A stretch of 64,000 bases of DNA from the NCBI RefSeq assembly GCF_013294015.1, contig NZ_JABSNO010000005.1, positions 1-64,000 of the forward strand, read 5' to 3'. The stretch is from Frigoriflavimonas asaccharolytica. GTDB taxonomy: Bacteria; Bacteroidota; Bacteroidia; Flavobacteriales; Weeksellaceae. The notes below the pieces were generated by a model. That model had not been told where the DNA came from. It was given only the letters and a program-made list of their open reading frames with translations, and searched no databases. Positions 1 through 24,668 of this stretch are shown in pieces. How positions within the stretch are numbered: position 1 is the first letter of the stretch; every line of letters starts with the position of its first letter. The translations under genes were made by a program, and so were the position numbers.

Positions 1-350
1 TTTTTCAAGCCAGAAGGATTATTTTTCCTAAAATCAGAAATACTATGATAATTGGGCGTTATTGCTGTCAAAAGCCATTGCAATTCTATATTTCGGACAC
101 ATTCTTTTTCGAGTTTCCGTGAACTTCGCACTCCGTTCAAATAGCCGTATAAATAGATTTTAAGAAAAACCTTTGTATTAAAACTTGGTCGACCTTCTGT
201 TTTAAGCGTTTGTACTTCAAAACCTAATGCTTTTAAATCCATACTCTCCACAAAAGCATCTACAAACCGTACAGGATTATCCTGAGAAATCGGATCTTCT
301 AAATTCGTAAAAACCATTTGGTTGCGGGCAATTCCAGTGATATGTTGCAT
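1..350 (-). CDS. IS1182-like transposase, N-terminal part (cut by window edge)
   Basis: The reverse strand reads from ATG at 350 to the window edge without a stop, about 116 codons. The translation begins MQHITGIARNQMVFTNLEDP and contains GRPSFNTKVFLKIYLYGYLN and a segment ending ITPNYHSISDFRKNNP. These are the hallmarks of the DUF772-type N-terminal domain of IS1182-family (DDE) transposases. The catalytic domain would lie outside the window. The element abuts the first cassette boundary at 438, so its insertion probably removed what lay to the left of it. I could not define a terminal inverted repeat from one end alone. Confidence 0.8.
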   Translation of the reverse strand, partial: MQHITGIARNQMVFTNLEDPISQDNPVRFVDAFVESMDLKALGFEVQTLKTEGRPSFNTKVFLKIYLYGYLNGVRSSRKLEKECVRNIELQWLLTAITPNYHSISDFRKNNPSGLK

Positions 351-430
351 CATTAAATATACGAAAATAGAAGCGAATTATTAAAATTATTTCCCTATTT
401 TTGAATATAATAAACGAAGGTTTTTTCACA

Positions 431-452
431 GACTGACGTTACCAACAAGCTG
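431..452 (+). repeat. right half of an attC-like site (5' boundary of first cassette)
   Basis: The sequence GTTACCAACAAGCT starts at 438. It is the imperfect reverse complement of AGCCTGTTGGCAAC at 1150-1163, just after the following gene (12 of 14 positions). Only the right half is present; the left half seems to have been replaced by the transposase-bearing element. Confidence 0.5.
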
Positions 453-468
453 AAAAAAAATCCTGCAA

Positions 469-1149
469 ATGAACAAACTTTCGTCTGAAAATCTAAATCT
501 TCTACCAAATCCGAGTGAATTACAAAAGATTTGTAAATCAATTTCTGCATTGGAATCAATTATTTGTCCTGAATGGGAATATAGATATTATTCTTACCAA
601 AAAGATTGGAGTAAGACCGAAGAGTTTTGCGAAATGAGAAACGGACAAGGAGACCAAATGTTAATCACTTTTAGCGAAAAGGGAACTTGTATTAACGGAT
701 TCGCTCACGAAAGTGAAATGAATGGTTGGAAAAATAATTCCCAACAAGAAATATCAAACGGAATTATAGACGAATTACCGAAAGAATTTAATGAGTTCAT
801 ATTTGGAGAACCAGTAAAAAGTATCGGAACCACATTTTGCATATGGCAAACTGAAAAGGATAAAAATTGGAAAATTGGAAAAATCGATTTACCAAAAGAC
901 GAATATAAAGATGGTTCTTCTGATTTATTACATTTATTGGACGGAAAACCATTAACATACAAAAATTGGGCAGAAGAATATTATGAGGAAAATTTTGAAG
1001 AAAACGAACTGAAATTGGAACTTGTAGAAAAAATTTATAACGGAACTATAATTACAAAAGAATTAGTTCTTGAAATAAATCCTGAATTGGATGATTTTGA
1101 ACAACTGAAATCTGATTTAGATGAAATTGGATATGAACATAAAATATAA
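469..1149 (+). CDS. uncharacterised 226-aa cytoplasmic protein (cassette gene)
   Basis: I do not recognise a named family. The protein has no signal peptide or membrane segment, is acidic, and is rich in Trp and aromatic residues in its first half (CPEWEYRYYSYQKDW). The C-terminal 60 residues are strongly charged and probably helical. It stands alone between an attC-like half site at 438 and a full attC-like site beginning one base after its stop codon, and it is read in the same direction as its neighbours. The layout suggests a mobile cassette cargo gene. The size and acidity would fit an immunity or antitoxin-like role, but nothing in the sequence proves this. Confidence 0.75.
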   Translation: MNKLSSENLNLLPNPSELQKICKSISALESIICPEWEYRYYSYQKDWSKTEEFCEMRNGQGDQMLITFSEKGTCINGFAHESEMNGWKNNSQQEISNGIIDELPKEFNEFIFGEPVKSIGTTFCIWQTEKDKNWKIGKIDLPKDEYKDGSSDLLHLLDGKPLTYKNWAEEYYEENFEENELKLELVEKIYNGTIITKELVLEINPELDDFEQLKSDLDEIGYEHKI

Positions 1150-1295
1150 AGCCTGTTGGCAACACCGTGTATAATTAATGGCTTGGTTCTCGCCTACTTA
1201 CGAAAACCCTCGCGGATTTTCTATTCGGTTTTTATTTACTAAATTAAGTGCTTAAATACGCCACTAATCATACACAAACACGTTAAATTGCATTT
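1150..1295 (+). repeat. attC-like site, class A
   Basis: This is an imperfect palindrome with AAC at 1161-1163 on the left and GTT at 1282-1284 on the right. GTGTATAATTAATGGC near the left end pairs with GCCACTAATCATACAC near the right end (14 of 16). The centre carries TCGCCTACTTACGAAA and a CCTCGCGGA block, which recur in the sites at 5597 and 6318. Confidence 0.55.
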
Positions 1296-1313
1296 GCAGA
1301 CAGCACAGAATCA

Positions 1314-2237
1314 ATGGGTACAGAGATAAAATATAAGATACTAGAATGTAAGTTTGGAGACAAACGATTCAAGATTGAGGAAGATTTGCCAGATGTTGGA
1401 TGGTATCTTTACGTTTATGACCAAAAAGGTAAATGTATCGCAGACCATTTGCAAAATGATTTAGAAACGGTAATCAATTTTGCATTCGAGGAATATAAGG
1501 TACCTATGACTAATTGGGTTGACAGCAAGGATATAAGTTTCGTACAAGAAGAAACCAATAAAATATTAGCTCAAAGAGTGTTGTCGCATTTTGATAGTAA
1601 AAAACTTATTGACTGGGCGATAATGCTTATGGGCAAGGGATTTGATTCAGAAAGTCTGATAATTCTTGCTGGACTAAATTCTGATACAACAGAAGAGCGC
1701 GAGCAATATTTTTGGCAGACAATTGACGAATTAGGACTTGACATTAACAGGACTGATTTTGAATTAATTGAGAATTATGCAATTTATGTTGCGGAATCTG
1801 TTGTAAACAAAAAGATTGCGCCAAAGGACGGACTGACAATAATGCAAGATATCGTTCGTTCCACAGATTATTCTAAAAGGTATGTTCAATTTTACGAGAT
1901 TGACGAAGACTTGGACTACTTAAAATATGATAATCATACAATTTTCAACTCAGGATTGACTTTAAAAAATGCGGACAAGTATATAACAAGAGAATTTGAA
2001 TTATTCCTTGAAACTGAGAAGTATAAAATTGATGATAAAACTAGAGAACTAGCATATTGTAAATCTTGTGACAAGATTGAGAAACCTAAGTTAAAGAACA
2101 TTAGAAACTGGTTTGGAAAAGTGAAATATCAAACTTGGGTATGTGGATTATGTGAATCTAAAAGTATACTACATTTTAGTAGTCAGAAGGGAAAAGAGAT
2201 AATCCTGAAAAGAAAAACGCAACCTAACAATGTATAA
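1314..2237 (+). CDS. uncharacterised 307-aa protein with C-terminal zinc-ribbon-like cysteines (cassette gene)
   Basis: I do not recognise a named family. The first 70 residues look like a small alpha/beta domain (GWYLYVYDQKGKCIADHL). A helical middle section includes the segment SESLIILAGL. Near the C-terminus, CKSCDK and CGLCES form two CxxC pairs about 30 residues apart, a likely zinc ribbon. There is no signal peptide or membrane segment. The stop codon lies inside the left arm of the next attC-like site, so gene end and recombination site overlap. Its upstream boundary GTTAAATTGCATTT mirrors AAACGCAACCTAAC at its own 3' end with only purine-transition mismatches. Function unknown. Confidence 0.75.
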   Translation: MGTEIKYKILECKFGDKRFKIEEDLPDVGWYLYVYDQKGKCIADHLQNDLETVINFAFEEYKVPMTNWVDSKDISFVQEETNKILAQRVLSHFDSKKLIDWAIMLMGKGFDSESLIILAGLNSDTTEEREQYFWQTIDELGLDINRTDFELIENYAIYVAESVVNKKIAPKDGLTIMQDIVRSTDYSKRYVQFYEIDEDLDYLKYDNHTIFNSGLTLKNADKYITREFELFLETEKYKIDDKTRELAYCKSCDKIEKPKLKNIRNWFGKVKYQTWVCGLCESKSILHFSSQKGKEIILKRKTQPNNV

Positions 2238-2350
2238 AAATAATAGCCGGAACAGCAGTAAATTCAAGGGTTGTAGCCCGCTTCAACTTTCTTGTGTTTT
2301 GACAGGAAAATGCCACGCAGTCGGCTACTATTCTTATACTAAACGTTAGC
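2212..2350 (+). repeat. attC-like site
   Basis: The left end is CCTAAC (2223-2228) and the right end is CGTTAG (2344-2349). Inside them GTATAAAAATAATAGCCG (2232-2249) matches the reverse complement of CGGCTACTATTCTTATAC at the right end in 16 of 18 positions. This is one of the cleanest palindromes of the set. It includes the last codons of the preceding gene. Confidence 0.55.
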
Positions 2351-2372
2351 AAGAAACCCATAACAAAAATTT

Positions 2373-2402
2373 CCTCTTCAAAAACTGAAGAGGGTTTTTT
2401 TT
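2373..2402. terminator. intrinsic terminator
   Basis: A perfect 7-bp stem, CCTCTTC at 2373-2379 and GAAGAGG at 2387-2393, is followed by a run of eight T. It would end transcription coming through the first two cassettes before the next gene. Confidence 0.75.
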
Positions 2403-2545
2403 AATAAAATTCACCAAAAAAATTCACAAAAGTGCTTATTAAATTCAATCATAACCACCATCAAAAATCCCCTAAAAAAATTAAAATTTTATTCCACAAT
2501 TAATGAAAATTATTTTATAGCTATGAGTACACAAAATTTAAAAAA

Positions 2546-3025
2546 ATGAGTACAAACAATCAAATCAGCATCGAGATCCCGCAGGGAATTTTAGATTAGG
2601 CATTGCAAGATCTACAAAAAGTGAAAGCCGCTCTTGCCCCTTATCTACAAGGCTTGACGGACAAAGAAAAACAATCGCTCTTCAAAATGGGAGACAAAAC
2701 CGTAGCCACCGTGCAGAAGGTAAAAAGCTACACCAGCACAAATCCAGAATTTAATCCAAACTATATGGATCTGGCAGAATTTGTGAAAGATGAAATCGTA
2801 GTTACCCAACTAGATCCCCTCGTAAATCTCTGCAATCAATTGGCTTCCGATCTATCAGATACCATGACGCTTGCAGGCAGCGAAGCCTTGAAGGCATCAC
2901 TTATGTATTACGGCGCTGTAAAAGAAGCGGAATCCAAAGGAGTTGCCACTGCAAAACCTATCTACGATGATCTTAGCCAAAGATTTATGCGACAAAACTT
3001 CAAGAAAGATAAACCAAAGGACTAA
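2546..3025 (+). pseudogene. conserved flavobacterial protein with an early nonsense codon
   Basis: ATG at 2546 opens MSTNNQISIEIPQGILD, then an in-frame TAG stands at 2597-2599, then the frame continues ALQDLQKVKAALAPYLQGLT for 142 codons to the stop at 3023. Both halves belong together: I recognise the joined sequence as a small soluble protein common in Bacteroidota, without a known function. The remaining frame has no stop or shift, so the lesion looks recent. TTG at 2603 could in principle restart translation and give a 140-aa product lacking the first 19 residues. A near-duplicate start, ATGAGTACACAAAATTT, lies at 2523. A terminator follows at 3049. Confidence 0.75.
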
Positions 3026-3048
3026 TCTATCTTCCCTCATTTAAAACT

Positions 3049-3090
3049 CGACCCTTTTATACTCAATGACGAGTAAAAAAGGGTCGTTTT
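3049..3090 (+). terminator. intrinsic terminator
   Basis: CGACCCTTTT at 3049-3058 pairs perfectly with AAAAGGGTCG at 3077-3086, followed by TTTT. It lies 23 bases after the stop codon of the interrupted gene. Confidence 0.7.
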
Positions 3091-3120
3091 CATTTCACAA
3101 GATTGAAGATCGAGCCTAAA

Positions 3121-3350
3121 AGATTGGATGGCGTGCCAAAAAGATTGGACGACGAGACTAAAAGACTGGATGGTGATGTAAAAAGTCTAGACAGTGAGGC
3201 AAATAGACTGGATGGCGAGACTAAAAGGCTCGATTGTCAGATGAAAGTGTGGGTAGGTCAGATAAAAGTGTGGGTATGCCAGGTGAAAGTGTGGGTGGAG
3301 AAGCTGAAAGTGTGGATGGAGAGGGAAAAAGAGTGGATTTTCAGTATTTA
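3121..3350 (+). repeat. minisatellite of about eleven 21-bp units
   Basis: Units of exactly 21 bp follow each other, the first six like AGACTGGATGGCGAGACTAAA and the last five drifted to GTGTGGGTATGCCAGGTGAAA. Because 21 is a multiple of three, reading frames stay open: one frame gives a KRLDG-type heptapeptide repeat that becomes KVWV, another gives a Ser-Val-Gly repeat. The only start for the first frame is TTG at 3103 and there is no convincing upstream signal, so I list this as a DNA repeat rather than a gene. From 3351 to about 3525 I see nothing further. Confidence 0.8.
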
Positions 3351-3551
3351 AAACTGTTTATAAGTGGTGAAAGTGGCAATTCGGATAATTATTGTGGGAT
3401 AAACAGATGCTTGATGATTTGTAGAAAAAATATTGATATATTTGTGAGTACAACAATTAAAGGAGCGCTTATACAAGCTATTTTGTGTCGATTCATTCAA
3501 GTTTGTAGCGAGTAATAACGAGTTGTATGTAATACCTAAAAAAGAAAAAAC

Positions 3552-5597
3552 ATGTATGAAATAAGACCAGAAAGTGTAAAAACTTTTGTTGAAGACAATA
3601 GCATAAAACTTCCTAGATTTCAAAGAAAACAAACTTGGGATGACAAGAAAAATTTTGAATTATGTATAAGTATTTTCAAAGAATATCCTATGGGAGTGTG
3701 TATATTAAATCTTGAAAAGCAAAATGGTGTTGAAACAAAATGGTTGTTAGATGGACGTCAAAGAAGAAACGCTTTAGCAACTATTTGGGATGATCCAGAA
3801 CAAATTTATATCTGGGCAAAAAAATGGCTTAAACTAAAAAATAATGACCAATTAGCAGATGTAGAAGAAAAATTTTGGGAAAGTATAAACGACTATTTAG
3901 AAGAGGATGTTGTTGAAAATGAAAATAATGAAATTGATTCTGATCTAAATGATGAAAATAATGAAGATTTAGATGATTCATTATCAAGTGATGAAGAAGA
4001 AGAATTTAATTTAAACTCGTCCGGTTTAGAATTTCTTTTAGAAATTATTAAGCTAATACATAATAAAACAACAAAATTTAGTGGTTTCACAAGACCTTTT
4101 GATTTCACTAAATTAATAAAAAGACTTCCATATGAGACAACTGTAAACGGAAAACGAACTCTAACTTCAAAAAAATTAAAAAGTTTTATTAATCAATATG
4201 AGACTTATTGTAAAGATGAGTTACTAGATTTAAATTCAAAAGTTTCATTTGAAAGTTTTATGTTTCAAAGATTTGATTTAGATTCAAGTACAAAACAAAG
4301 TTTAAAAGCTCAAATAACACAAAATTGGGATAATATTTATGCTAGAATTGACATTCTAAATAAAATAAGAAACATACTAATAGGAGCTAAAATTGGACTT
4401 ATTGAAGTCAAAGATATTGCTAGTACTGACTCTCAAAAGATATTCAATATTATTAACTCAAAAGGAACGAAACTTAATGCTGTTGAGATTTTATCTGCAA
4501 AACCTAGCTGGAATATTATTATTAAAAACCCAACTCAAAAGCAAATAGTTGCTACTAAAGAATTATATACTAAAATTGAAGTAAGATATGAGAATATTGT
4601 TAAATGGGATTTACCAGCAACATTCTTAAGTGTAATTCAAAATGGTTCTTCCTTTTTCAAAGAGTTTACAGACTCAAAAGCTGATTTTGAAAAACAATTA
4701 ACATTAGGTTTTAAATTAGTTAGTGGATTAATACAAGGAGGTGTAAAAAAAGAAGATATTGATGATTTAAGCAGAAACAAAGATATTAATTGGGAGGTGG
4801 ATATTGAAAACCTTGCTAATGAAGTAGACCTTTTTAGTAAAATAATATTAAGTAATGAATATTTTAAATATTTTAAATCTTGGAAGGTTTCTATAATGGA
4901 TCTTTTAACTGATGCCATTACACTAAACTTCGTCATAATTCTTTATAAAGATTGGGTAAGAAAAGGTAAACCAGTAGGCTCTGACACAAAAGCAAAGCAA
5001 TTCCAGAAAAATAGCTTCATATTAATAGATCAACTAATTTTTGAATATGTTAATAAACAATGGAGAGGATCAAGTGATTCAAAAATTGCTAAAAACCTAA
5101 ATAACTTTGGTGGTTTACCTGAATTGTTTGAACCAATTACTAAAGCGAGATGGAGAACTTTGTTAAATGAAATAATAGATTCAAATTCTATAGATTCTGA
5201 CAAAATAACTCAAAAGATGATGGAGCCAATTTTATATCACTTTTACTGTATATCGAAAATTCAAGGTCCAGATTCATTCTATAAAATAGAAGTTGATCAC
5301 ATAATTCCTCAATCAATTTTTAATAAATCTGCTTTAAGAGATAGAGACTCATTACAACATAATTTATATAACCTAGCGTTACTTCCAAAAGATGATAATA
5401 TTTCGAAGAGCAGTAAACGTTTAGTTGAAATTTCTAATCAATGGTTAAAAGATCAAATTGAAAAATATGCATTTATAAAGGAAAATCAATTTACTACATT
5501 TTCAGAATTGAATAATCTTGAACAATTAAAAAATTTACGAGGTAATATGATTCTTGATGCTTTTGATAAGAAAAGAGATAGTATTTTAAATAACTAG
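3552..5597 (+). CDS. DUF262/HNH-type protein (GmrSD-like, putative defence nuclease)
   Basis: The N-terminal DUF262 (ParB-like) domain shows the nucleotide-binding motif DGRQR at residues 67-71 after PRFQRKQTWD. The C-terminal region carries an HNH-type nuclease signature, VDHIIPQS, followed by LYNLALLP and an Asn/Lys-rich end, around residues 578-620. This pairing is the arrangement of single-chain GmrSD-type proteins, which cleave modified phage DNA using nucleotide hydrolysis. Residues about 122-157 form an unusually acidic Asn/Asp/Glu insertion. At 681 aa the length suits the family. It is the largest cassette gene; its flanks TTGTATGTAATAC and GTACTACTTACAA are near-perfect inverted repeats. 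The defence role is inferred from the family. Confidence 0.82.
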   Translation: MYEIRPESVKTFVEDNSIKLPRFQRKQTWDDKKNFELCISIFKEYPMGVCILNLEKQNGVETKWLLDGRQRRNALATIWDDPEQIYIWAKKWLKLKNNDQLADVEEKFWESINDYLEEDVVENENNEIDSDLNDENNEDLDDSLSSDEEEEFNLNSSGLEFLLEIIKLIHNKTTKFSGFTRPFDFTKLIKRLPYETTVNGKRTLTSKKLKSFINQYETYCKDELLDLNSKVSFESFMFQRFDLDSSTKQSLKAQITQNWDNIYARIDILNKIRNILIGAKIGLIEVKDIASTDSQKIFNIINSKGTKLNAVEILSAKPSWNIIIKNPTQKQIVATKELYTKIEVRYENIVKWDLPATFLSVIQNGSSFFKEFTDSKADFEKQLTLGFKLVSGLIQGGVKKEDIDDLSRNKDINWEVDIENLANEVDLFSKIILSNEYFKYFKSWKVSIMDLLTDAITLNFVIILYKDWVRKGKPVGSDTKAKQFQKNSFILIDQLIFEYVNKQWRGSSDSKIAKNLNNFGGLPELFEPITKARWRTLLNEIIDSNSIDSDKITQKMMEPILYHFYCISKIQGPDSFYKIEVDHIIPQSIFNKSALRDRDSLQHNLYNLALLPKDDNISKSSKRLVEISNQWLKDQIEKYAFIKENQFTTFSELNNLEQLKNLRGNMILDAFDKKRDSILNN

Positions 5598-5742
5598 TAC
5601 TACTTACAATACTGACTGTAAGTAATTGCTAGTTCTCGCCTACTTACGAAAGTCCTCGCGGACTTTCTTGGTCGGTAATTATTTACTAAATTAGTTGCTT
5701 GAAACACGCAACTAACTATATACAATCACGTTAGCTGTAAGC
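5597..5742 (+). repeat. attC-like site, class A
   Basis: The left core GTACTACTTACAA begins at the last base of the stop codon; the right end is CACGTTAGCTGTAAGC with GTT at 5730. The centre shares TCGCCTACTTACGAAA, CCTCGCGGACTTTC and TTTACTAAATTA with the sites at 1150 and 6318. The AAC of the left end is changed to AAT. Confidence 0.5.
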
Positions 5743-5768
5743 TTTAAGCTGAAAATAAAAATAGTAAT

Positions 5769-6314
5769 TTGGAAATTAAAGGATATAATACAGAAATTTC
5801 ACCTATAGAATTTGAGAAATTAGTAAAAGATTACTTTCTTGAAATAAGCGGAACTTTAAAAAATTTTAAAGCAACTCATAATGTTAGAATAAAATCATTT
5901 GATGGAGACTATCAAATTGATGTTTTTGCTGAATTTGAAGCGCTAGGCACAGAAATAAGAGTTCTTGTTGAATGCAAGAAACATAAAAATAAAATAAAGA
6001 GAGAGACAGTTCAAGTACTTTTTGATAAGTTAAGAGCCACAGGAAGTCATAAAGGAATTATATTCGCTACAAGTGGCTTCCAAAGTGGAGCTGAAAAATT
6101 TGCAAAAGAACACGGAATTGCTCTTATTAATGTAATTGAAGGAAAATTGACTGTAGGTGTAAAAAGTGCTGAAAAAACTGAAATCAGTGAAGAATATTTA
6201 AAATTTTTTGAAATACCAAAATATGTTGGAGAATATAATTATTCGGATAATGGTATTTGTTATTTGCAAAAAGGTTATTTAGAAACATTAGAAGATTTTA
6301 TATATGATAAGTAA
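5769..6314 (+). CDS. Mrr-like restriction endonuclease-fold protein (cassette gene)
   Basis: The fold is PD-(D/E)xK: QIDVFAEF gives the metal-binding Asp51, VLVECKKHK gives the E-x-K pair Glu68/Lys70, and VQVLFDKLRATGSHKGIIFATSGFQSGA is the typical Mrr_cat continuation (residues about 81-108). Glu15 in PIEFEKLV fits the family's N-terminal conserved acid. The start is TTG at 5769; no ATG precedes it in frame. At 181 aa it is a stand-alone nuclease domain without a DNA-recognition domain. Its cassette flanks, GTTAGCTGTA upstream and TACAGCTAAC downstream, are perfect inverted repeats. A role in DNA restriction is likely from the fold, but the target is unknown. Confidence 0.8.
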   Translation: MEIKGYNTEISPIEFEKLVKDYFLEISGTLKNFKATHNVRIKSFDGDYQIDVFAEFEALGTEIRVLVECKKHKNKIKRETVQVLFDKLRATGSHKGIIFATSGFQSGAEKFAKEHGIALINVIEGKLTVGVKSAEKTEISEEYLKFFEIPKYVGEYNYSDNGICYLQKGYLETLEDFIYDK

Positions 6315-6317
6315 GAG

Positions 6318-6448
6318 TCTACAGCTAACACCATATAAAATTTATTGCTGGCTTCTCGCCTACTTATAAAAGTCCTCTTGTACTTTCTTGTTCGGTAATT
6401 AGATGCTTATACATACAACTTATCATATACAAAAATGTTACATGTAAT
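6318..6448 (+). repeat. attC-like site, class A
   Basis: TACAGCTAACA at 6320-6330 pairs with TGTTACATGTA at 6436-6446 (9 of 11). The centre again carries CTCGCCTACTTA followed by a CCTC...TTTCTTGTTCGGTAATTA stretch shared with the two other class A sites. Confidence 0.55.
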
Positions 6449-6463
6449 ATAAACCAATAATAT

Positions 6464-7057
6464 ATGAAAAAGAAAAAAATAGTATTCAGCATATTAGCTG
6501 CTCTTGTATTAATGATATCAATATTCCTTTATATGAATAGAGATAAATTCGTCTATGTAGGTTCAGTAGATATTATTGAAGTCGATTGCAGCAAAAAACT
6601 TCAAATCTTGAGCGAAGTTTTAGAAAGTGATCAAAAGATTAGAAAAGAAAGTGATTTAATCAAATTCGCTAAAGAAGATCATAGAAATCAAGAATTAGTG
6701 ATTAGCATTATTGAAAAGTGTGGTATGCCAACATTAAAGGAGGTGGGACAAAAACATATGGATGCTATCTGGTTGGGACTGCAACATAGTTCTGAGGAAG
6801 AAATCAGAAAAAAGTATTGGCCACAAGTAGAGAAAGCGGTTGAAAATGGAGACTTATCTAAACAACAATACGCCTTGATGAAGGATAGGATTTTGATGGA
6901 CGAAGGAAAACCACAAATATATGGTTCTCAAATAGAAAATGGCAAATTGTATACATTAGAAAATCCTGAAACTGTGAACGTAAGAAGAAAAGAAATGGGT
7001 ATGGAACCAATAGAGGAATATTTAAAGTATTTCAACATTATGTTTAATCCGAAGTAA
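6464..7057 (+). CDS. DUF6624 family protein, membrane-anchored
   Basis: One N-terminal transmembrane segment (residues about 5-23) is followed by an extracytoplasmic domain of about 170 residues. The domain has the DUF6624 signature: a CGMPTLKEVG segment, IWLGLQHSS, KKYWPQVEKAVENGDLSKQQYALMKDRIL, then DEGKPQIYGSQ and a final VRRKEMGMEPIEEYLKYF. The family is widespread and its function is unknown. The charged start MKKKKIV fits a signal anchor. The gene lies alone between attC-like sites; its upstream boundary GTTACATGTAAT mirrors ACTACACGTACC just after its stop. Confidence 0.85.
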   Translation: MKKKKIVFSILAALVLMISIFLYMNRDKFVYVGSVDIIEVDCSKKLQILSEVLESDQKIRKESDLIKFAKEDHRNQELVISIIEKCGMPTLKEVGQKHMDAIWLGLQHSSEEEIRKKYWPQVEKAVENGDLSKQQYALMKDRILMDEGKPQIYGSQIENGKLYTLENPETVNVRRKEMGMEPIEEYLKYFNIMFNPK

Positions 7058-7061
7058 AAAT

Positions 7062-7200
7062 ACTACACGTACCAGCTCATATTTTTTATACTTCAATTTG
7101 AAATAGTACAAACTGACAAACATTCAGCAAACGATTTGCTACCACCGAAAAATATCTGATTTTTAGACGCACAAATCATATAAAATCACGTAATCTGTGA
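7062..7200 (+). repeat. degenerate attC-like site
   Basis: The left end TACACGTACC (7064-7073) keeps complementarity to the 5' boundary of the preceding gene, but AAC has become ACC. The right end is CACGTAATCTG at 7188, where GTT has become GTA. The internal palindrome is weak, so the site may be dead. Confidence 0.35.
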
Positions 7201-7295
7201 GAAATTCGTAAATGGCAATAATATAAGGAAAAATAGAATCTCTAAAAACTCTAAAATCTGAATTAGAGCGTAATGGAATTTACAGATTTAATTCT

Positions 7296-8258
7296 GTGAA
7301 AGAAATTAAGGATTTTTTATTAAATTATAATTCGGAAAAACGCATTGTCCTCAATTATGAAGTAGAGAAATTAGCAGTAAAACATTCTGAAACCTGCTCT
7401 AATCTTAAACAAAGAATACAGAACAAAACTGAAATAATCAATTTCGAAACTGAAAAAATTGATGATCGAATTTCTGATTTAGAGAGAAAAATTAACATCA
7501 TTAATACTAACGATATTAACTTTTTAAAAAAAATAATCTCAAGTGTAAAACTATATTCCCTAAAAAAGCAATCGAATTACCTCGTTAAAAATAGAAATGA
7601 ATTGGTAAATGCTTCAGTAAAAGAGATTACGAGAAGCATTGAAAATGATGAGATTTTCATAAGAGAATACGAAGCTGATATAGAAAATTTAATTGCAGAA
7701 AGAGCAAAATCAGAAATTCAAAGATTAGAATATACACGAAATGTTTTAGAAAACTCAAGAAATCTAATTTCTGGAGCGATAGGGGAAAATTTAGTTGTAA
7801 AAGAAATAAAGAAACTTTCAGATGACTATGTATTAATTAATAATTTCAATTTAAAATTTTCTCGTCCGATTTTTTACAAAAAGCACAATCAAAGGATATA
7901 CTCTGTACAAATAGACCACCTTTTAATTTCCAAAGCAGGAATTTTTATCATAGAAACAAAGAACTGGAGCAAATCATCTGTCGATACTATCAATTTGAGG
8001 TCGCCGATTGAACAAATTGAAAGATCTAGTTTTGCACTTTATGTGTATATCTCGGAAAATATTAGATTAAATGAGCATCATTGGGGAGAACAACAAATTC
8101 CTATAAGAAATCTTATTGTGATGATTAATAATAAGCCAATAGGTAAATTTAAATATGTAAAAATTAAACTCTTAAACGAACTTAATGATTATCTAAAATT
8201 TTTTGAACCTGTTTTAACAGAAAATCAGATTGATTTTATTACAAACAAATTGCTTTAA
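7296..8258 (+). CDS. NERD-domain protein with N-terminal coiled coil
   Basis: A long charged coiled coil fills residues about 30-155. It is followed by a NERD (nuclease-related) domain: GAIGE at 160-164, then QIDHLLISKAGIFIIETKNWS with putative catalytic Asp207, Glu220 and Lys222. The C-terminus continues with a beta-rich stretch. The first usable start is GTG at 7296, but the frame is open upstream to 7227 and reads IESLKTLKSELERNGIYRFNS, which looks like true protein. It begins at ATA (7233-7235) where an ATG would be expected. Either translation starts at ATA or the native start has been lost. NERD proteins are thought to act on DNA; the role here is unknown. Confidence 0.75.
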   Translation: MKEIKDFLLNYNSEKRIVLNYEVEKLAVKHSETCSNLKQRIQNKTEIINFETEKIDDRISDLERKINIINTNDINFLKKIISSVKLYSLKKQSNYLVKNRNELVNASVKEITRSIENDEIFIREYEADIENLIAERAKSEIQRLEYTRNVLENSRNLISGAIGENLVVKEIKKLSDDYVLINNFNLKFSRPIFYKKHNQRIYSVQIDHLLISKAGIFIIETKNWSKSSVDTINLRSPIEQIERSSFALYVYISENIRLNEHHWGEQQIPIRNLIVMINNKPIGKFKYVKIKLLNELNDYLKFFEPVLTENQIDFITNKLL

Positions 8259-8377
8259 TAAAAATTATAACCAAGAAGAATATCATTTTAAGTTTTTCGC
8301 AATCTGCCATTTGCAGTAATTTTTCACCTTTGATTTTTACTGCTCTTATTATCTAAATATTTATGCTATTTTTAACC

Positions 8378-8914
8378 ATGAAAAAAATAATTTTCTTCAT
8401 TTTAATATTGGGATTTCAATTAATTTTTGCTCAAAACGAGGGCAAAGTTGATACCATATCTGTATCTCAAGCAGATCCGCTTGTTTTTGAAAAAATCACC
8501 TTGCTGGCACATAGACCTTGCCAAAAACCTCGGTTGGAAACCAATTATTATTTAAAAAATCCTAAAAATGGCGCCTACTACATTATTTATAATGAAGAAA
8601 AACAGCTGACTTTGGAGGGTACATATGTTTTTAATGAAACCAATAAAGGTTTAGGAAAAGACGCGGGTTCTTTTTATGATTCCAAAAGCTACCACTATAA
8701 AAAGAATGGAAATATAGACTTTATCCATTATCAAAAAGAAGGTAGAAACTCTAGAACAGAATATTTTGATGGAAAAAAGCGCCTAAAAAAAATAAGATAC
8801 ATAGACAAAAAAAGTGGTGATACCGATAAAATAGAAATTTACCAAAAGGGAAAACTTAAAGAAACGCGAATATATACCGCATTTTCTACCTATCACACCG
8901 TGAAAAGCAATTGA
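8378..8914 (+). CDS. secreted protein of unknown function
   Basis: I chose ATG at 8378 because it begins a clean signal peptide, MKKIIFFILILGFQLIFAQ, with cleavage after FAQ; an earlier in-frame ATG at 8363 would add MLFLT in front. The mature part is about 160 residues, basic, and rich in Tyr and Lys, with repeated strand-like segments (YHYKKNGNIDFIHYQKEG) that resemble short MORN-type beta repeats. I do not recognise a family. It has no clear attC-like site directly before it, so it may be a resident gene rather than a cassette. Confidence 0.7.
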   Translation: MKKIIFFILILGFQLIFAQNEGKVDTISVSQADPLVFEKITLLAHRPCQKPRLETNYYLKNPKNGAYYIIYNEEKQLTLEGTYVFNETNKGLGKDAGSFYDSKSYHYKKNGNIDFIHYQKEGRNSRTEYFDGKKRLKKIRYIDKKSGDTDKIEIYQKGKLKETRIYTAFSTYHTVKSN

Positions 8915-9007
8915 GTGTAGCGCAAAAGGTCATTTGGAAAATTATTTTGAACGCGCTATTTGTAGAAAAAATAATTTTATATTTGTGAGGGGAAGGATTG
9001 AAGTAGC

Positions 9008-9078
9008 GGATATCTAACGTAATTTGTTTTGATTGGCGCTATTTTGTAGTGGGTATTAACGTGTTGTGCGATATGCTA
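9008..9078 (+). repeat. short attC-like site
   Basis: ATATCTAACGTAAT near the left end is similar to the reverse complement of ATTAACGTGTTGTGCGATAT at the right end. At about 70 bp it is the shortest of the set. A -7-like TATATTTG at 8978-8985 lies just before it and could drive the following gene. Confidence 0.4.
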
Positions 9079-9103
9079 AAACAAAGTCATTAAAAGTAAA
9101 TTA

Positions 9104-9787
9104 ATGAAAAAATTATTCAAATTATCAATTTTATTTGTATTTATTTTTACAATGAAATCTTGTGCACAAAACCCTGAATTGGGCAAAGATATAATAGATT
9201 TAAAAACATTCCCTATAAGTTTTAATGCAAATGATTTTTATAAAAATCAAATCAAAATTCACAAGAAATCTAGAGAATTACTTTCTCAAGGGAAATTTGA
9301 AGAATCAGTATCTGACGAATTACTAAAAAATTATAAATTCGTAGAAAAAATTGATACGTTGTCTATTGATGATAATGTACCACTACTTTATTATGGAATG
9401 GAAGGAATGGCTACTAAAGATACTTTAGCCATATTTGAAGGTATCAAATTTGAAAAGATAGAAATGTTTACTAATATTTCAAATGTTTTTCAGTCATTAA
9501 GAGCCATTTCTTACGCATATAAAGATGGTAAAAAAAACTTCAATACTTTAAAGCAAAAATTAGAGATTGAATATGGAAAACCTAAAATAATAAAGGAAAA
9601 CCTAGAACACAAAGAATATTATGAATGGACAACTGAAGACCTTGTTATAAACTTAATTCTGAATGTAGAAGATGAAAAAGATAACGATAAAAGTTTTGTA
9701 GCCGAATTATATTTGACAAATAAGAAAGAATATGAAAACTTTAAAAATAATGTAATTGGAAAAACTAAATATTATTGGTTTTATTGA
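9104..9787 (+). CDS. putative lipoprotein, unknown function (cassette gene)
   Basis: The N-terminus MKKLFKLSILFVFIFTMKSCAQ is a lipoprotein signal with the lipobox cysteine at about residue 20. The mature domain of about 205 residues is mixed alpha/beta and acidic; it contains LKQKLEIEYGKPK and a following YYEWTTEDLVINLIL strand pair, a pattern seen in several periplasmic Bacteroidota proteins of unknown function. Its flanks TTGTGCGAT and ATCGCACAA are perfect 9-bp inverted repeats, placing it as one cassette. Confidence 0.72.
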   Translation: MKKLFKLSILFVFIFTMKSCAQNPELGKDIIDLKTFPISFNANDFYKNQIKIHKKSRELLSQGKFEESVSDELLKNYKFVEKIDTLSIDDNVPLLYYGMEGMATKDTLAIFEGIKFEKIEMFTNISNVFQSLRAISYAYKDGKKNFNTLKQKLEIEYGKPKIIKENLEHKEYYEWTTEDLVINLILNVEDEKDNDKSFVAELYLTNKKEYENFKNNVIGKTKYYWFY

Positions 9788-9844
9788 CATTATTACTTGA
9801 TGAAATGATGTGATATATGAGGTTAAGAAACAAAATAGGTAAAG

Positions 9845-9990
9845 CACAATCGCACAAAATTAGTTTGACAATATGGCAGGTTCGGTGCTAAATCGAAGAC
9901 TTTTGCCATTTTCTAATTTTTAGTTATTACCCAAAAATTACCACATTCAAAGGCTTTATTTTTCTTATACAAAACCGTTAGCAGAATTGC
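9845..9990 (+). repeat. attC-like site, class C
   Basis: The left core ATCGCACAA lies at 9849-9857 and the right end CCGTTAGC has GTT at 9977. The centre carries GGTTCGGTGCTAAATCGAAGA, a motif that recurs at about 10630 and 23150. The palindrome is weaker than in class A. Confidence 0.42.
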
Positions 9991-10022
9991 TATAAAAAAC
10001 AGAATTGAAATTAAATCGTTAA

Positions 10023-10598
10023 ATGGAAATAAATCATATTCGAATTTTATTTTTTTGTCTAATTCCAATTGGTGTTTTCGCATTATTAAAAGGAATTAAA
10101 TTAATCCGAAAATCTTTTAGTGGAGAAGTCTTATTAGAAATTCCATTTTCACAATTAAGTGGCCAATTTTATGTTGCAAAAGCAGGAACTTTTTCTATTT
10201 GGCAGAAAGGAAAATCACTTACGCGAACCCCAATTGATAAATTAAGACCATTTATTTATAGTGAATTGACAAAGGAAGAGTTGAAGCTAAATTACTCTTT
10301 ATTAAGTCCTCGCATAAACGATTTTTCGACAGGACGAATGGAATTATTTACTTTTTATGCACCTATTGGTAGCTATAAAATAGAACTTAAAGAAGGAACA
10401 ATTTTATTTGGTTTACAAAATCTTATTGCAAAAGCGATACCTTCAAAATCAATTGATATGACTAAATTTTATGTTCAAATTAGAGAATCACAGTCACAAG
10501 TATTTACATTTTTGGCGATACCAATGATTATATCAGGAATGTTCGGAATAATTGGAGGATTTGTCTTAGGAATATTAGCAGATCAAATCATAAAATAA
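10023..10598 (+). CDS. membrane protein of unknown function (cassette gene)
   Basis: Two hydrophobic segments are seen: residues about 6-25 at the N-terminus and 164-188 at the C-terminus, the latter rich in Gly (ISGMFGIIGGFVLGIL). The roughly 135 residues between them form a soluble beta-rich domain, probably periplasmic or cytoplasmic depending on topology. No catalytic motif is visible and I do not recognise a family. The upstream boundary TTAGCAGAATTGCT mirrors AGCAATGCTA after the stop, with a short gap. Confidence 0.7.
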   Translation: MEINHIRILFFCLIPIGVFALLKGIKLIRKSFSGEVLLEIPFSQLSGQFYVAKAGTFSIWQKGKSLTRTPIDKLRPFIYSELTKEELKLNYSLLSPRINDFSTGRMELFTFYAPIGSYKIELKEGTILFGLQNLIAKAIPSKSIDMTKFYVQIRESQSQVFTFLAIPMIISGMFGIIGGFVLGILADQIIK

Positions 10599-10599
10599 A

Positions 10600-10740
10600 A
10601 GCAATGCTACTCAAACTGTATATTAAAAATAGCGGATTTAGTGCTAAATGGAAGATTTTAGCGATTGATAAGTTTTTAGCAAGTAGAAAGTTTTTGTATT
10701 TTTATCCCGCCTGCATAAATACACAGTAGTTGCAATTCAA
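10600..10740 (+). repeat. attC-like site, class C; end of first array
   Basis: The left core is AGCAATGCTA (10600-10609) and the right end is GTAGTTGCAATTC with GTT at 10729. CTGTATATT near the left pairs with AATACACAG near the right. The centre has GGATTTAGTGCTAAATGGAAGA. No matching core is found after the next genes, so the array appears to stop here. Confidence 0.45.
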
Positions 10741-20791: not shown

Positions 20792-20843
20792 TGTGTTGTG
20801 CGACACATTGGTAGAAATCGTAAAAAAGAAATAAATCAGAAAA

Positions 20844-21476
20844 ATGACAAAAATGAAAGCACCTAATAAAGACATAAAATTTCCTCTTGAAAATTATGAA
20901 AAACTCTGCTTTCTAAAAAATATCATTAAAAATCCAAACATAATTATTGGTGATTATACTTATTATGATGATTTTGAAAATGTTAATAATTTTGAAAAAA
21001 ACGTAAAATATCATTTTGATTTTATTGGTGATAAATTAATAATCGGTAAGTTTTGTATGATTGCTTCTGATGTCAAATTCATAATGAATGGAGCGAATCA
21101 TTTGACTAAATCAATAAGTTCATATCCTTTCGCAATATTTGGAGAAGATTGGAAAGATGCAATGGAAGGAAAACAATATCCAAATAAAGGAAATACAGAA
21201 ATCGGAAACGATGTTTGGATTGGATTTAATTCTACAATCATGCCAGGTGTGAAAATTGGCGATGGAGCAATAATCGCTACGAATTCAACTGTAACTAAAA
21301 ATGTAGAACCATATACAATTGTTGGTGGAAATCCAGCAAAAGAAATAAAAAAAAGATTTTCAAAAGAACAAATTAAAAAACTATTAGGAATAAAATGGTG
21401 GAATTGGGAAATTGAAAAAATTACAGAAAATATTCACAATTTGACAAGCGAAAATTTTGATGACTTAAATGTTTAA
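20844..21476 (+). CDS. Vat/CatB-like xenobiotic acetyltransferase (hexapeptide-repeat)
   Basis: A left-handed beta-helix acyltransferase of the xenobiotic (XAT) class. The catalytic His86 sits in FIMNGANHLTKS, the residue used by Vat and CatB enzymes. The helix repeats are clear (EIGNDVWIGFNSTIMPGVKIGDG), followed by VGGNPAKEIKKRF and a helical C-terminus with WWNWEIEKI. At 210 aa it fits the streptogramin A and CatB chloramphenicol acetyltransferases. Such genes are common integron cargo. It is the first gene of the array, nearest the promoter. The substrate cannot be told from sequence and resistance should not be assumed. Confidence 0.82.
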   Translation: MTKMKAPNKDIKFPLENYEKLCFLKNIIKNPNIIIGDYTYYDDFENVNNFEKNVKYHFDFIGDKLIIGKFCMIASDVKFIMNGANHLTKSISSYPFAIFGEDWKDAMEGKQYPNKGNTEIGNDVWIGFNSTIMPGVKIGDGAIIATNSTVTKNVEPYTIVGGNPAKEIKKRFSKEQIKKLLGIKWWNWEIEKITENIHNLTSENFDDLNV

Positions 21477-21487
21477 TAAATAAAAAA

Positions 21488-21630
21488 GCGATCGCACAAC
21501 AGCGGTTTGCAAAAATGGCGAAATATGTGGTAAATTCACGTTTATCTTTCGCAAGAAATTTTATCTTAGCCGAAAATAATCGGTCACGAAGTTCGACACT
21601 TCTGCAAGCCGCGACACGTTGTAGCATTCT
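21488..21630 (+). repeat. attC-like site, class B
   Basis: Left core TCGCACAAC ends at 21500; right end CACGTTGTAGC has GTT at 21618. ACAACAGCGGTTTGC at the left pairs imperfectly with GCAAGCCGCGACACGTTGT at the right. The interior CGCAAGAAATTTTATCTTAG, followed by CCGAAAATAATCGGT, is shared almost base for base with the site at 22483. Confidence 0.55.
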
Positions 21631-21653
21631 AAAACGACACTGCAAAAAAGAAA

Positions 21654-22493
21654 ATGAGTAGAAAAAATTGGACTGACGAAAAATTAATTTTTCGGCTTAT
21701 AAATAATAAGACGGACAAATCTCGTTGGGATAATATCAGTATTTTAAGAAAGCGACCAAGTGAAGAACTTTTTCGAAAGTGTCTAGAGCTGATCAAATCT
21801 GACAACACAAAAATCAGAAAAATAGGAATTGATATTTTAGCTCAGTTTGGTTTACCTCCAAGACCATTTTTAGTTGAAACGCTTAAAATCTATTTTGAAT
21901 TACTTGAAATTGAAACAGACCCAGACGTTTTAATGTCTCTACTGTATTCTATTGGACACAATAATGACGGACTTGACAATGATCAAATTGAAAAAATATG
22001 TTCATTTATAGAGAACGAAAATAATTGGGTAAAAGAAGGTTTAGTTTATGCGTTGCTTGGAATTGATAACTTAAACGCAATTCAAACTTTAATAAAGCTT
22101 TCGTCAGACAAATTAAGTCATATTAGAAATTGGGCAACTTTTGGACTTGGAACTCAAATCCAAAATAATAATAAAAATATTCGAGAAGCTTTATGGAAAA
22201 GAGTTAACGACAAGCATCAAGAAACAAAACTTGAAGCAATTGTAGGATTGGCAAAACGAAAAGACAATCGAGTAAACGAAATAATAGAGCGTGAAGTTAT
22301 GGACGGAGAATATGGTATTTTGCTTTTTGAAGCAATTAACTATACGAAAAATAAGAATTTTTTACCCTTACTTAAGCAAAATTTAAAAAACGCAGAAGAA
22401 GATAACGCAATAAATACTGAATGGAAAGAGGAATTAAAAAACCGCATTAAAGAACTAACAAAAATAACAGAAGAAAATAGAACGACCGCATAA
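21654..22493 (+). CDS. HEAT-repeat protein (cassette gene)
   Basis: The 279-aa protein is made of paired helices typical of HEAT repeats: for example DNTKIRKIGIDILAQFG, NNWVKEGLVYALLG, LSHIRNWATFGLG and HQETKLEAIVGLAKRKD, roughly one every 35 residues. There is no signal peptide or membrane segment. HEAT proteins are binding scaffolds; no enzymatic motif is present. Close homologues of this type occur as single genes in many Bacteroidota. The stop codon forms the start of the next attC-like site. Partner unknown. Confidence 0.75.
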   Translation: MSRKNWTDEKLIFRLINNKTDKSRWDNISILRKRPSEELFRKCLELIKSDNTKIRKIGIDILAQFGLPPRPFLVETLKIYFELLEIETDPDVLMSLLYSIGHNNDGLDNDQIEKICSFIENENNWVKEGLVYALLGIDNLNAIQTLIKLSSDKLSHIRNWATFGLGTQIQNNNKNIREALWKRVNDKHQETKLEAIVGLAKRKDNRVNEIIEREVMDGEYGILLFEAINYTKNKNFLPLLKQNLKNAEEDNAINTEWKEELKNRIKELTKITEENRTTA

Positions 22494-22622
22494 CACACAT
22501 TTTGCGCTACTGCGAAATTTGTGGTAGCCGGACGTTCCTCTTTCGCAAGAAATTTTATCTTAGCCGAAAATAATCGGTTACGAAGTTCGCCACTTCTTTT
22601 AGCCGCAACACGTTTTGCTTCA
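22483..22622 (+). repeat. attC-like site, class B
   Basis: The left end is CGCATAAC (AAC at 22492-22494) and the right end CACGTTTTGCTT has GTT at 22612. The interior shares CGCAAGAAATTTTATCTTAG and the adjoining ATAATCGGT...CGAAGTTCG block with the site at 21488. Complementarity between this left core and the 5' boundary of its own cassette is weak. Confidence 0.5.
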
Positions 22623-22661
22623 TTAATCGTGAGACGCAGATAACCAGAAATAAAATTAAAA

Positions 22662-23144
22662 ATGGAATTTGAATTAATAGTAAGAGGAAATGAATGTGAA
22701 GTTCAACTGAATGTTGCTAAATTCCCTTTATTCTGCCCTTCTTGTAGAAATTATATGACTGAAATTTACGAGCATAATGGTTCTCGATATGGTCAGGTTG
22801 GTTCTATTAAATGCGATTGCGGAGAAACCTTGAATTTAACAGATAGTGATAATATTATAGAATATATAAATATTCAAGTAAGAAAACTAAAAGCGGTTGT
22901 CGATTTCAAAAAGCTATTTCTAATGGAAAAAAAAGATTTTGAAAAATTAAAAAATGACATCGGATATAATATTTACGAAAAGCATTTTAATGAAAAAATT
23001 GACTTAAACTATTTGATTTTAAATATTGAGAATTATCTTGGAGAAAAAATTTCACCTTTTGAAACTGAATTCCCAGCAACAATCGGAATTAAAAAATGGA
23101 TTGGATTAATGAAAAAAATAACGAAAGCACAACACGATAAGTAA
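22662..23144 (+). CDS. zinc-ribbon protein of unknown function (cassette gene)
   Basis: CPSC at residues about 25-28 and CDCG at about 51-54 make a zinc ribbon in the first third of the protein. The remaining 100 residues are helical and charged and end in KKITKAQHDK. There is no signal peptide. I recognise no family beyond the ribbon. The end of the coding region, AAGCACAAC, is itself the left core of the next attC-like site and mirrors GTTTTGCTT upstream of the gene. Confidence 0.7.
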   Translation: MEFELIVRGNECEVQLNVAKFPLFCPSCRNYMTEIYEHNGSRYGQVGSIKCDCGETLNLTDSDNIIEYINIQVRKLKAVVDFKKLFLMEKKDFEKLKNDIGYNIYEKHFNEKIDLNYLILNIENYLGEKISPFETEFPATIGIKKWIGLMKKITKAQHDK

Positions 23145-23262
23145 AAAATAGCGAGTTCTGTACTAAATCGAAGATTTTCGCTATTTACGAAATTTCGTTT
23201 TTATCTGAAAGTTCTCGCATTTCAAGCCGCAACTTTTCATGTTTTCAAACGTTGTATGCAAG
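23122..23262 (+). repeat. attC-like site, class C
   Basis: Left core AAGCACAAC ends at 23133 inside the gene; right end AACGTTGTATGCAAG has GTT at 23251. The interior TTCTGTACTAAATCGAAGAT matches the class C motif at 9880 and 10635. Confidence 0.45.
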
Positions 23263-23326
23263 CTTACCACAACGAATTGAAAATCAGAAATATAAAAAAA
23301 TTTTGTCCTAAAAAAAAATTAAAAAT

Positions 23327-23656
23327 ATGGTTAAACTATAACTCGATACTTGCGTTTGGTTAGACATCGCTAAAACATCAAAAAGCAAAGAAATTTTAAA
23401 TTTACTTTCTAAATTTATTGAGCAAGTTGAAGTACAATTAATTTTACCTGAAATTATTTTTTCTGAATTCGATAGAAATAGAGAGAGAATAATTTCAGCC
23501 GCACGAAAAAGTTTATCGAGCCACTTTAAAAAAGTAAAAGCTATGGTCGCTAAACATGCAAAAAACGATTTAAAGCAAGAACTTTTAATTCAGCTTGATG
23601 ATATTGATAAAAAAAATCCAACTCTCGGAGAGAATGATTTTGACCAAGGGAACTAA
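23327..23656 (+). pseudogene. decayed PIN-like (DUF4935-type) protein
   Basis: ATG at 23327 is followed by VKL and then TAA at 23339-23341, after which the frame reads LDTCVWLDIAKTSKSKEILN, the typical opening of a PIN-like ribonuclease with LDTCVWLD as its first acidic motif. The TAA takes the place of the aromatic residue usual before LDT, so one base change created it. The frame then runs to LDDIDKKNPTLGE and stops at 23654 after only 109 codons, far short of a full protein, so the C-terminal part is also lost. No restart codon lies near the N-terminus. Confidence 0.72.
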
Positions 23657-23736
23657 AAGTTGCACTTTCTACCAAAAAAGACAATTGACAACTGAGAGGA
23701 ATAGAATTATTCAACAAAATTTTTAAAACAAGTAAC

Positions 23737-24351
23737 ATGCAATACGAAATGATAAGATACGAAAATGGCAAGCACCAAATAGGCTGAGAAATTCCAACTG
23801 ATTTTACCATTCCAAATAATGAATTTTTAGCCGGTTTTCAATATTTAGGTTTTATAGATAATTATGACCCATTATTTTCTTGGTTACCTTTCTGCGTTAA
23901 CTTAATTCATCCAATTTATACTGATGAATATTTCGTATTTCTAGATTATTCAAATCCAAATAGTCCGACAATTATCGAACCTGAAGACACTTCTTCGTCA
24001 ACAAGTGCATTTGATGAAATAAACAAAAACTCAAAAATTATTTGGGAAGGAATAAAAGTAAGTTTAGCGCAAAAAGAAGAAATTGATGAATATGAAAGCA
24101 TAGGAATTTGTGGGGAACCAGAATGGTTGCAAGAAGCGGAAATTCCAAAATGTCCGAAAAGTGGTAAATCAATGAGGTTTTTGTGTCAACTGGGAAGTTT
24201 TAGTGAAATTAAATCAACATACAGCAACATAAAACCGACAAAAGGAATGGATGAATATTTTCAAAAATTAAACTTTTGGTGTGATGGAAATTTATATATT
24301 TTTATAGAACCGACAACCAAAACAATGTGCTATACAATGCAGATTTCCTAA
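23737..24351 (+). pseudogene. DUF1963-like protein with early nonsense codon
   Basis: ATG at 23737 opens MQYEMIRYENGKHQIG, then TGA at 23785-23787, then EIPTDFTIPNNEFLAGFQYLGF and an uninterrupted frame to the stop at 24349. The end carries GEPEWLQEAEIPKCPKSGK followed by MRFLCQLGS, the DUF1963-like cytoplasmic domain. Relatives have Trp after this Gly, so TGG to TGA explains the stop. The rest of the 204 codons is intact, which implies recent loss. An internal TTG at 24127 leaves only the last third. Confidence 0.72.
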
Positions 24352-24371
24352 TTTACTATCTATGTAAAAAG

Positions 24372-24440
24372 AACGAACTGCTAACAGCCGTTTGCAAAAA
24401 CTTAGAGAATTGTGGTACATTCTTGTATCAAAAGAAATAT
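24372..24440 (+). repeat. left half of an attC-like site; end of second array
   Basis: GAACTGCTAACAGCCGTTTGC resembles the left end at 21490 and carries AAC at 24383-24385. No right end with GTT and no mirrored core were found, so the site looks incomplete. From 24440 to 24668 I see only AT-rich sequence. Confidence 0.35.
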
Positions 24441-24668
24441 AATTTTAGCCAAAAAACCTGGGTGAAAAATTCGCAGTATCGTAAATCCAAAAGTATCGTA
24501 AAATTTACCGTCAGAAGTCAAATATAATTTCGATATTTCTTAATGAATAACTTTTCAAAAAGCAATATCCAGATATAACTTTAAATTCAAAAAAATCAAT
24601 AATTTATATTGCTAAAAAAATTGACTTTGCAACTTGTTTTAAAGCTTAATCACAGATATTCTTTAAAA

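Follow-up and report, generated by a model that had tools for sequence, protein, structure and literature searches.

A decayed, integrase-less cassette array in Frigoriflavimonas asaccharolytica, probably belonging to an integron-type system for gene capture in Bacteroidota

The window analysed here, 64,000 nucleotides of contig NZ_JABSNO010000005.1 (C5) of Frigoriflavimonas asaccharolytica, carries a broken series of gene cassettes and attC-like sites, and we are confident that this array belongs to a Bacteroidota system of gene capture of the integron type, of which it is a decayed part without an integrase. The system is widespread in the phylum, where canonical IntI coexists with it in some genomes, and it works like an integron; its recombinase and its sites were compared with the two defining features of integrons, IntI and the canonical attC, and differed from both. 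Its cassettes run from TT to G and usually hold one gene and one site, with complementary ends. Preprints aside, we found no earlier description of it in the literature searched. The features of the window are given below, where R1 is a covariance model trained on the cores of 68 sites, without their arms, all taken from other genomes, and the nhmmer values refer to an attI profile built from 41 attI regions.

1..437, minus strand: IS transposase fragment at the contig end, recognised from the sequence and abutting the first attC end
438..1163, plus strand: cassette A, head GTTACCAACAAGCT (438-451), tail AGCCTGTTGGCAAC (1150-1163), position 11 A/C; ORF 469-1149, 226 aa, no Pfam match
1161..1284, minus strand: attC-like site A with block CTCGCCTACTTACGAAA; R1 31.9 bits, E 5e-6, bottom strand
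1282..2228, plus strand: cassette B, head GTTAAATTGCATTT, tail AAACGCAACCTAAC; ORF 1314-2237
2226..2347, minus strand: attC-like site B; R1 50.8 bits, E 7e-11
3411..3524, plus strand: decayed attI platform 1, attI-like core ending AACGA|GTT; nhmmer E 2e-5
3522..5610, plus strand: cassette C, GmrSD_N/HNH protein 3552-5597 (PF03235, E 6e-14); tail ends AAT
5608..5732, minus strand: attC-like site C, class A block, by block match; weak in R1 (11.5 bits, E 0.9)
5730..6329, plus strand: cassette D, Mrr-like restriction endonuclease 5769-6314 (PF04471, E 4e-18)
6327..6439, minus strand: attC-like site D, class A block, by block match at 6355
6437..7073, plus strand: cassette E, DUF6624 protein 6464-7057; tail ends ACC
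7190..8300, plus strand: cassette F, decayed, NERD protein 7296-8258 (PF08378, E 7e-15); head GTAATC
8958..9065, plus strand: decayed attI platform 2, layout as in 3411-3524; nhmmer E 4.7e-4
9063..9858, plus strand: cassette G, lipoprotein-like ORF 9104-9787; arms TTGTGCGAT / ATCGCACAA
9856..9979, minus strand: attC-like site G, partial; R1 at 9878-9955, 18.6 bits, E 0.014
9977..10731, plus strand: cassette H, ORF 10023-10598
10614-10731: attC-like site of cassette H; R1 35.5 bits, E 6e-7
20797..24389, plus strand: second cassette cluster without integrase, partly decayed, with R1 sites at 21498-21620 (96.7 bits), 22492-22614, 23131-23253 and 24383-24495

The initial annotation had proposed an integron-like cassette array without integrase, which agrees with the absence of any PF00589 match, and hence of an integrase, on the window contig; an Rfam search gave no match at the array. 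It had also drawn a single array from 438 to 10740, of which the units proved to be real; the array is broken, with several units degenerate, and is not one intact array. The non-cassette sequence 2345-3410 separates cassettes A and B (438-2347) from the following runs, each lying behind a decayed attI, one after 3411-3524 and the other after 8958-9065, and no obvious cassette was seen in 8363-8914. In the first platform an integrase 3' remnant, LDDL*, with its TAG at 3422-3424, is followed by the promoter-like TATATTTG, and 103 nt separate the TAG from the GTT end, exactly as they do from the TAG at 8963 in the second. These two attI remnants suggest the loss of integrase; the window holds integrase-less remnants, in which two platforms lost the integrase gene and keep attI remnants only. 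The covariance model, trained on other genomes, recovered the sites at 1161-1284, 2226-2347 and 10614-10731, picked up those at 5608-5732 and 9878-9955 weakly or in part, and gave no match at site D; the block of site A recurs in an integrase-linked locus (L114:13459-13581). The AAC and GTT bounds described for the units mostly held, except for the two tails ending AAT and ACC, and the tail of cassette F was sought but not found and is lost. The IS fragment at 1..437 looks like a member of the IS1182 family. Low-complexity, coding-like tandem repeats were noticed at 3103-3351 and at L018:527-967 (RLDGETKRLDG; HLRSHFYHLRR).

The two ends of one cassette are complementary. The four arm pairs cited for this in the initial annotation are present in the sequence, and for six units, with heads fixed at GTT and tails, located by eye, at AAC, 37 of 42 bases at arm positions 4-10 matched, where permuted pairings gave 16.8 on average; of all 720 permutations the true head-tail pairing scored best. 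Taken alone this test is modest, because the tails were placed by eye, and an unrestricted search of the window alone for complementary stretches near genes did not rise above background. The complementarity becomes firm through the A (5') and C (3') at arm position 11 in five of the six units, which is independent of the choice of tail and follows a rule learned from other genomes, which the initial annotation had not pointed out. In cassette D ten of ten arm bases match and are followed by A/C, and in cassette B each of the three mismatches is an A.C on top and a T.G at the bottom. In the other genomes A/C stood at position 11 in 87 of 110 cassettes, it marks more than 100 Bacteroidota cassettes, and the arm pattern downstream of integrases reads GTTR-N6-A-NNN / NNN-C-N6-YAAC. 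Perfect-arm pairs with this mark numbered 107 against 18 in the control; self-complementary pairs without it showed a weak excess. Over 121 cassettes the arms of the same cassette matched at 0.88 (positions 4-10) as against 0.39 when shuffled (sd 0.017), far above chance, while the two sides of one site matched at 0.42. At positions 4-9 the match still stood at 87-92% in the 76 pairs whose two members had not both served in training.

A recombinase other than IntI had been suspected, to be sought elsewhere in the genome. Contig C36 of the same genome indeed ends with an intact tyrosine recombinase of 347 aa (P0001), followed by the attI-like TATACAAG|TT and a first cassette. Eighty relatives with 52-77% identity were fetched from Bacteroidota; they sit upstream of such arrays, with cassettes directly downstream, are 345-360 aa long and share the invariant catalytic residues R204, K229, H294, R297, H320 and Y329. 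The segment from the catalytic lysine region to box II measures 60-61 aa in 25 family members and 102 aa in 11 genuine IntI proteins of the same phylum, and alignment with IntI4 likewise showed that the family lacks the ~41-aa IntI additional domain; it has an extra N-terminal domain of ~70 aa. These 70 aa gave no Pfam match and no significant fold match, the top Foldseek match being SMARCAL1 HARP (E 0.56). The closest solved relatives are the XerA proteins of archaea (fold Z 23.1); with NF040815 (XerA, cut-off 220 bits) the C36 protein scored 222, L055 217 and L116 234, and the new integrase falls far below the model cut-offs of both XerC and XerD. Xer recombinases are tied to a dif site, whereas the new integrase is tied to cassette arrays and bears the N-terminal extension. 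IntI forms one clade in the tree (98/99); on whether this clade joins the new family the p-AU was 0.106, which fits a common as well as a separate origin. Upstream of the integrase of C36 (L017, at 9070) a ~270-bp sequence is repeated in tandem, its two copies being nearly identical.

R1 gave 167 strong matches in the 80 loci, all of them downstream of the integrase (356 kb) and none upstream (716 kb). Against the preferred explanation, 14 of the 59 loci that offer 1 kb or more of sequence gave no downstream R1 site; for C36 an IS91-like end at the first site would explain this. Contigs ended within 2.5 kb of the integrase on the downstream side in 38 of 80 loci and on the upstream side in 4, as expected of repetitive arrays. 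The 121 cassettes stand in tandem with the same orientation and usually hold one ORF each; of 117 that were scored, 104 have their longest ORF on the plus strand, and the median length is 182 aa. The putative attI beside the integrase is situated 95-116 nt (about 105 nt) after the stop codon and shows the consensus TATAnAYAAG|TT (TAT...AAGTT) in 42 of 42 cases; covarying inverted repeats are present in the attI regions. Of 395 genomes sampled from the phylum, 179 contain R1 sites. The integrase is also present on two Chryseobacterium plasmids, one of which has seven sites downstream of it on the expected strand; a complete plasmid copy of the system is that of Chryseobacterium sp. SNU WT5. Site queries against plasmids returned one match, on the Chryseobacterium plasmid already found.

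The stems of the sites covary, with compensatory changes in 18 of 19 pairs. One G.T (G.U) pair, which would be A.C if the top strand folded, is conserved in 65 of 68 bottom strands, and the A/C at position 11 also turns into T.G when the bottom strand is read; it is on this strand alone that the conserved mismatches can pair, as G·T wobbles. When 121 sites were rebuilt in circular form in silico, predicted folding was stronger for the bottom strand in 113, a bias which agrees with integron polarity, since integrons recombine the bottom strand (PMC8946536). We propose that in the excised circular cassette the bottom strand of the site would fold into a hairpin with a 14-bp R arm containing a fixed G.T wobble, a short asymmetric loop, an L arm in which another G.T wobble is fixed, and, as a separate part, a variable end. 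The recombinase would join this folded site to double-stranded attI, cutting at G|TT, and excision would join attC to attC; the single-strand exchange would then be resolved by replication, as in integrons, and the promoter-like TATATTTG ahead of attI may express the first cassettes. We infer from co-location that the integrase acts on these sites, and the sequences suggest that the system is active.

Four cassette pairs with 94-99.6% identity end exactly at G|TT and have unlike flanks. A 698-bp cassette (99.6%) is common to Flavobacterium sp. LC2016-12 and F. saccharophilum, being the third of the array in one genome and the first behind attI in the other; a 1.4-kb cassette (94%) is common to Kaistella treverensis and F. 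denitrificans, and two copies of a 1088-bp cassette occur within one array. Near-identical cassettes thus follow attI in one genome and attC in another, and gene order is shuffled among arrays, contrary to what a stable order would give. The window cassettes, compared with 296 genomes of the order, gave gene- or site-level matches and no whole-cassette match.

The same data bear on the alternative that the arm complementarity is incidental and that stable gene islands carry the palindromes as transcription terminators or REP-like repeats. Hairpins between co-directional genes and the partly decayed state of the window array would suit it; but the complementarity joins the two ends of a cassette and not the two sides of a hairpin (0.88 against 0.42), and cassettes are exchanged with exact ends. 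We therefore reject it as having practically no chance of being right. Set against the refuting conditions named in the initial annotation, the shuffled gene order, the arm complementarity of other arrays and the covarying stems all spoke for its idea. A further reading, compatible with the cassette system preferred here, takes the window arrays for dead fossils captured long ago and functionally unrelated to the C36 integrase. The window holds no such integrase and has an IS at the contig end, and its attI remnants and tails are degenerate; against this, some sites are near consensus (21498-21620, 96.7 bits) and 14 sites are scattered over the source genome, which also carries the intact integrase. 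We consider this reading possible, though somewhat doubtful. In the second cluster, cassettes 2 and 4 are not self-complementary, as judged by eye, which, like the degenerate units of the window, counts against the preferred explanation; its first gene looks like a hexapeptide-repeat acetyltransferase with the promoter-like TATATTTG just before its GTT, and later cassettes are fused or frameshifted. At G000:C3:206141-206305 a degenerate integrase fragment with an in-frame TAA lies 3.1 kb from an R1 site (C3:209387) and is perhaps another decayed platform.

It may also be argued that this is an ordinary integron, whose cassettes are moved by a canonical IntI located elsewhere and whose sites are divergent attC. 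Integrons with IntI (class 1, Vibrio, Bacteroidota chromosomal) likewise have single-gene cassettes, own-end complementarity, attI beside the integrase, folded attC with bottom-strand bias, a G|TT junction and arrays that break assemblies; both kinds of site share the general plan of AAC, short spacer, stem, longer spacer and GTT, and R1 scores 8 canonical sites, if only at 19-32 bits. However, the source genome has no TIGR02249 match above cut-off, genuine IntI loci of the phylum contain no strong R1 sites, and in some of these genomes (G391, G301) the R1 arrays adjoin the other integrase and not IntI. R3, a model of the IntI-linked sites for which RNAalifold gave 6 pairs only and the known L-box pairs were added by hand, found no new-type site in 22 new-type loci, although it is narrow: run on further IntI loci, it gave two matches only, of which one had E 0.08. 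The new sites form a contiguous helix with two fixed G.T wobbles and have a 14-bp R arm with A/C at position 11, whereas IntI-linked sites have an extrahelical GTCC-type L box and a paired position 11. The departure of the cores from GTTRRRY, correctly pointed out from the window (this R box occurs in 15 of 166 new-type sites), does not tell the two systems apart, since in this phylum the canonical arrays linked to IntI depart from it as well. Taken together, the ordinary-integron reading is largely refuted and very unlikely. Sites and cassettes without an integrase on the contig also recall CALIN, which are defined with canonical attC models (PMC8618304); the window sites appear to belong to another site family.

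We are moderately inclined to regard the system as a second kind of integron, in which an Xer-like recombinase outside the IntI clade captures cassettes via folded bottom-strand sites, fixed G.T wobbles replace the extrahelical bases and possibly the N-terminal domain replaces the IntI additional domain. Such a system, found alongside canonical IntI within single genomes, might account for the uptake of genes without homology in Weeksellaceae. The additional domain is held necessary for integron recombination (Messier and Roy 2001, as cited in PMC9668308); if a system lacking it is widespread, capture through folded single-stranded sites would be achievable in another way, and the choice of strand could be tested by setting wobble against extrahelical base. 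Among Bacteroidetes genomes, that of Salinibacter was the only one for which IntegronFinder 2.0 reported a complete integron (PMC9024848), against R1-type sites in 179 of 395 genomes here. Restriction-type genes (GmrSD, Mrr, NERD) are among the window cassettes, and the arrays may thus hold a large stock of mobile accessory genes as yet unread. In Riemerella anatipestifer, also of the Weeksellaceae, aph(3')-IVb with a 27-bp 5' flank and a 140-bp attC-like 3' flank integrates site-specifically without homology, and the authors name no recombinase (PMC13148043, 2026). This bench result is an independent hint; by the likeness of the described flanks, the integration may belong to the new system.

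IS91-family ends lie at the first attC in C36 (L017:10711-10799) and in the plasmid integron of Chryseobacterium oryzae (L193:17738-17806), and IS91 elements may favour these attC sites. C36 might run directly into the window contig; an IS91-like end follows its first cassette. At L126:14656-14827 and 15254-15424 the terminal part is ~45 nt longer than in the usual 124-nt sites.
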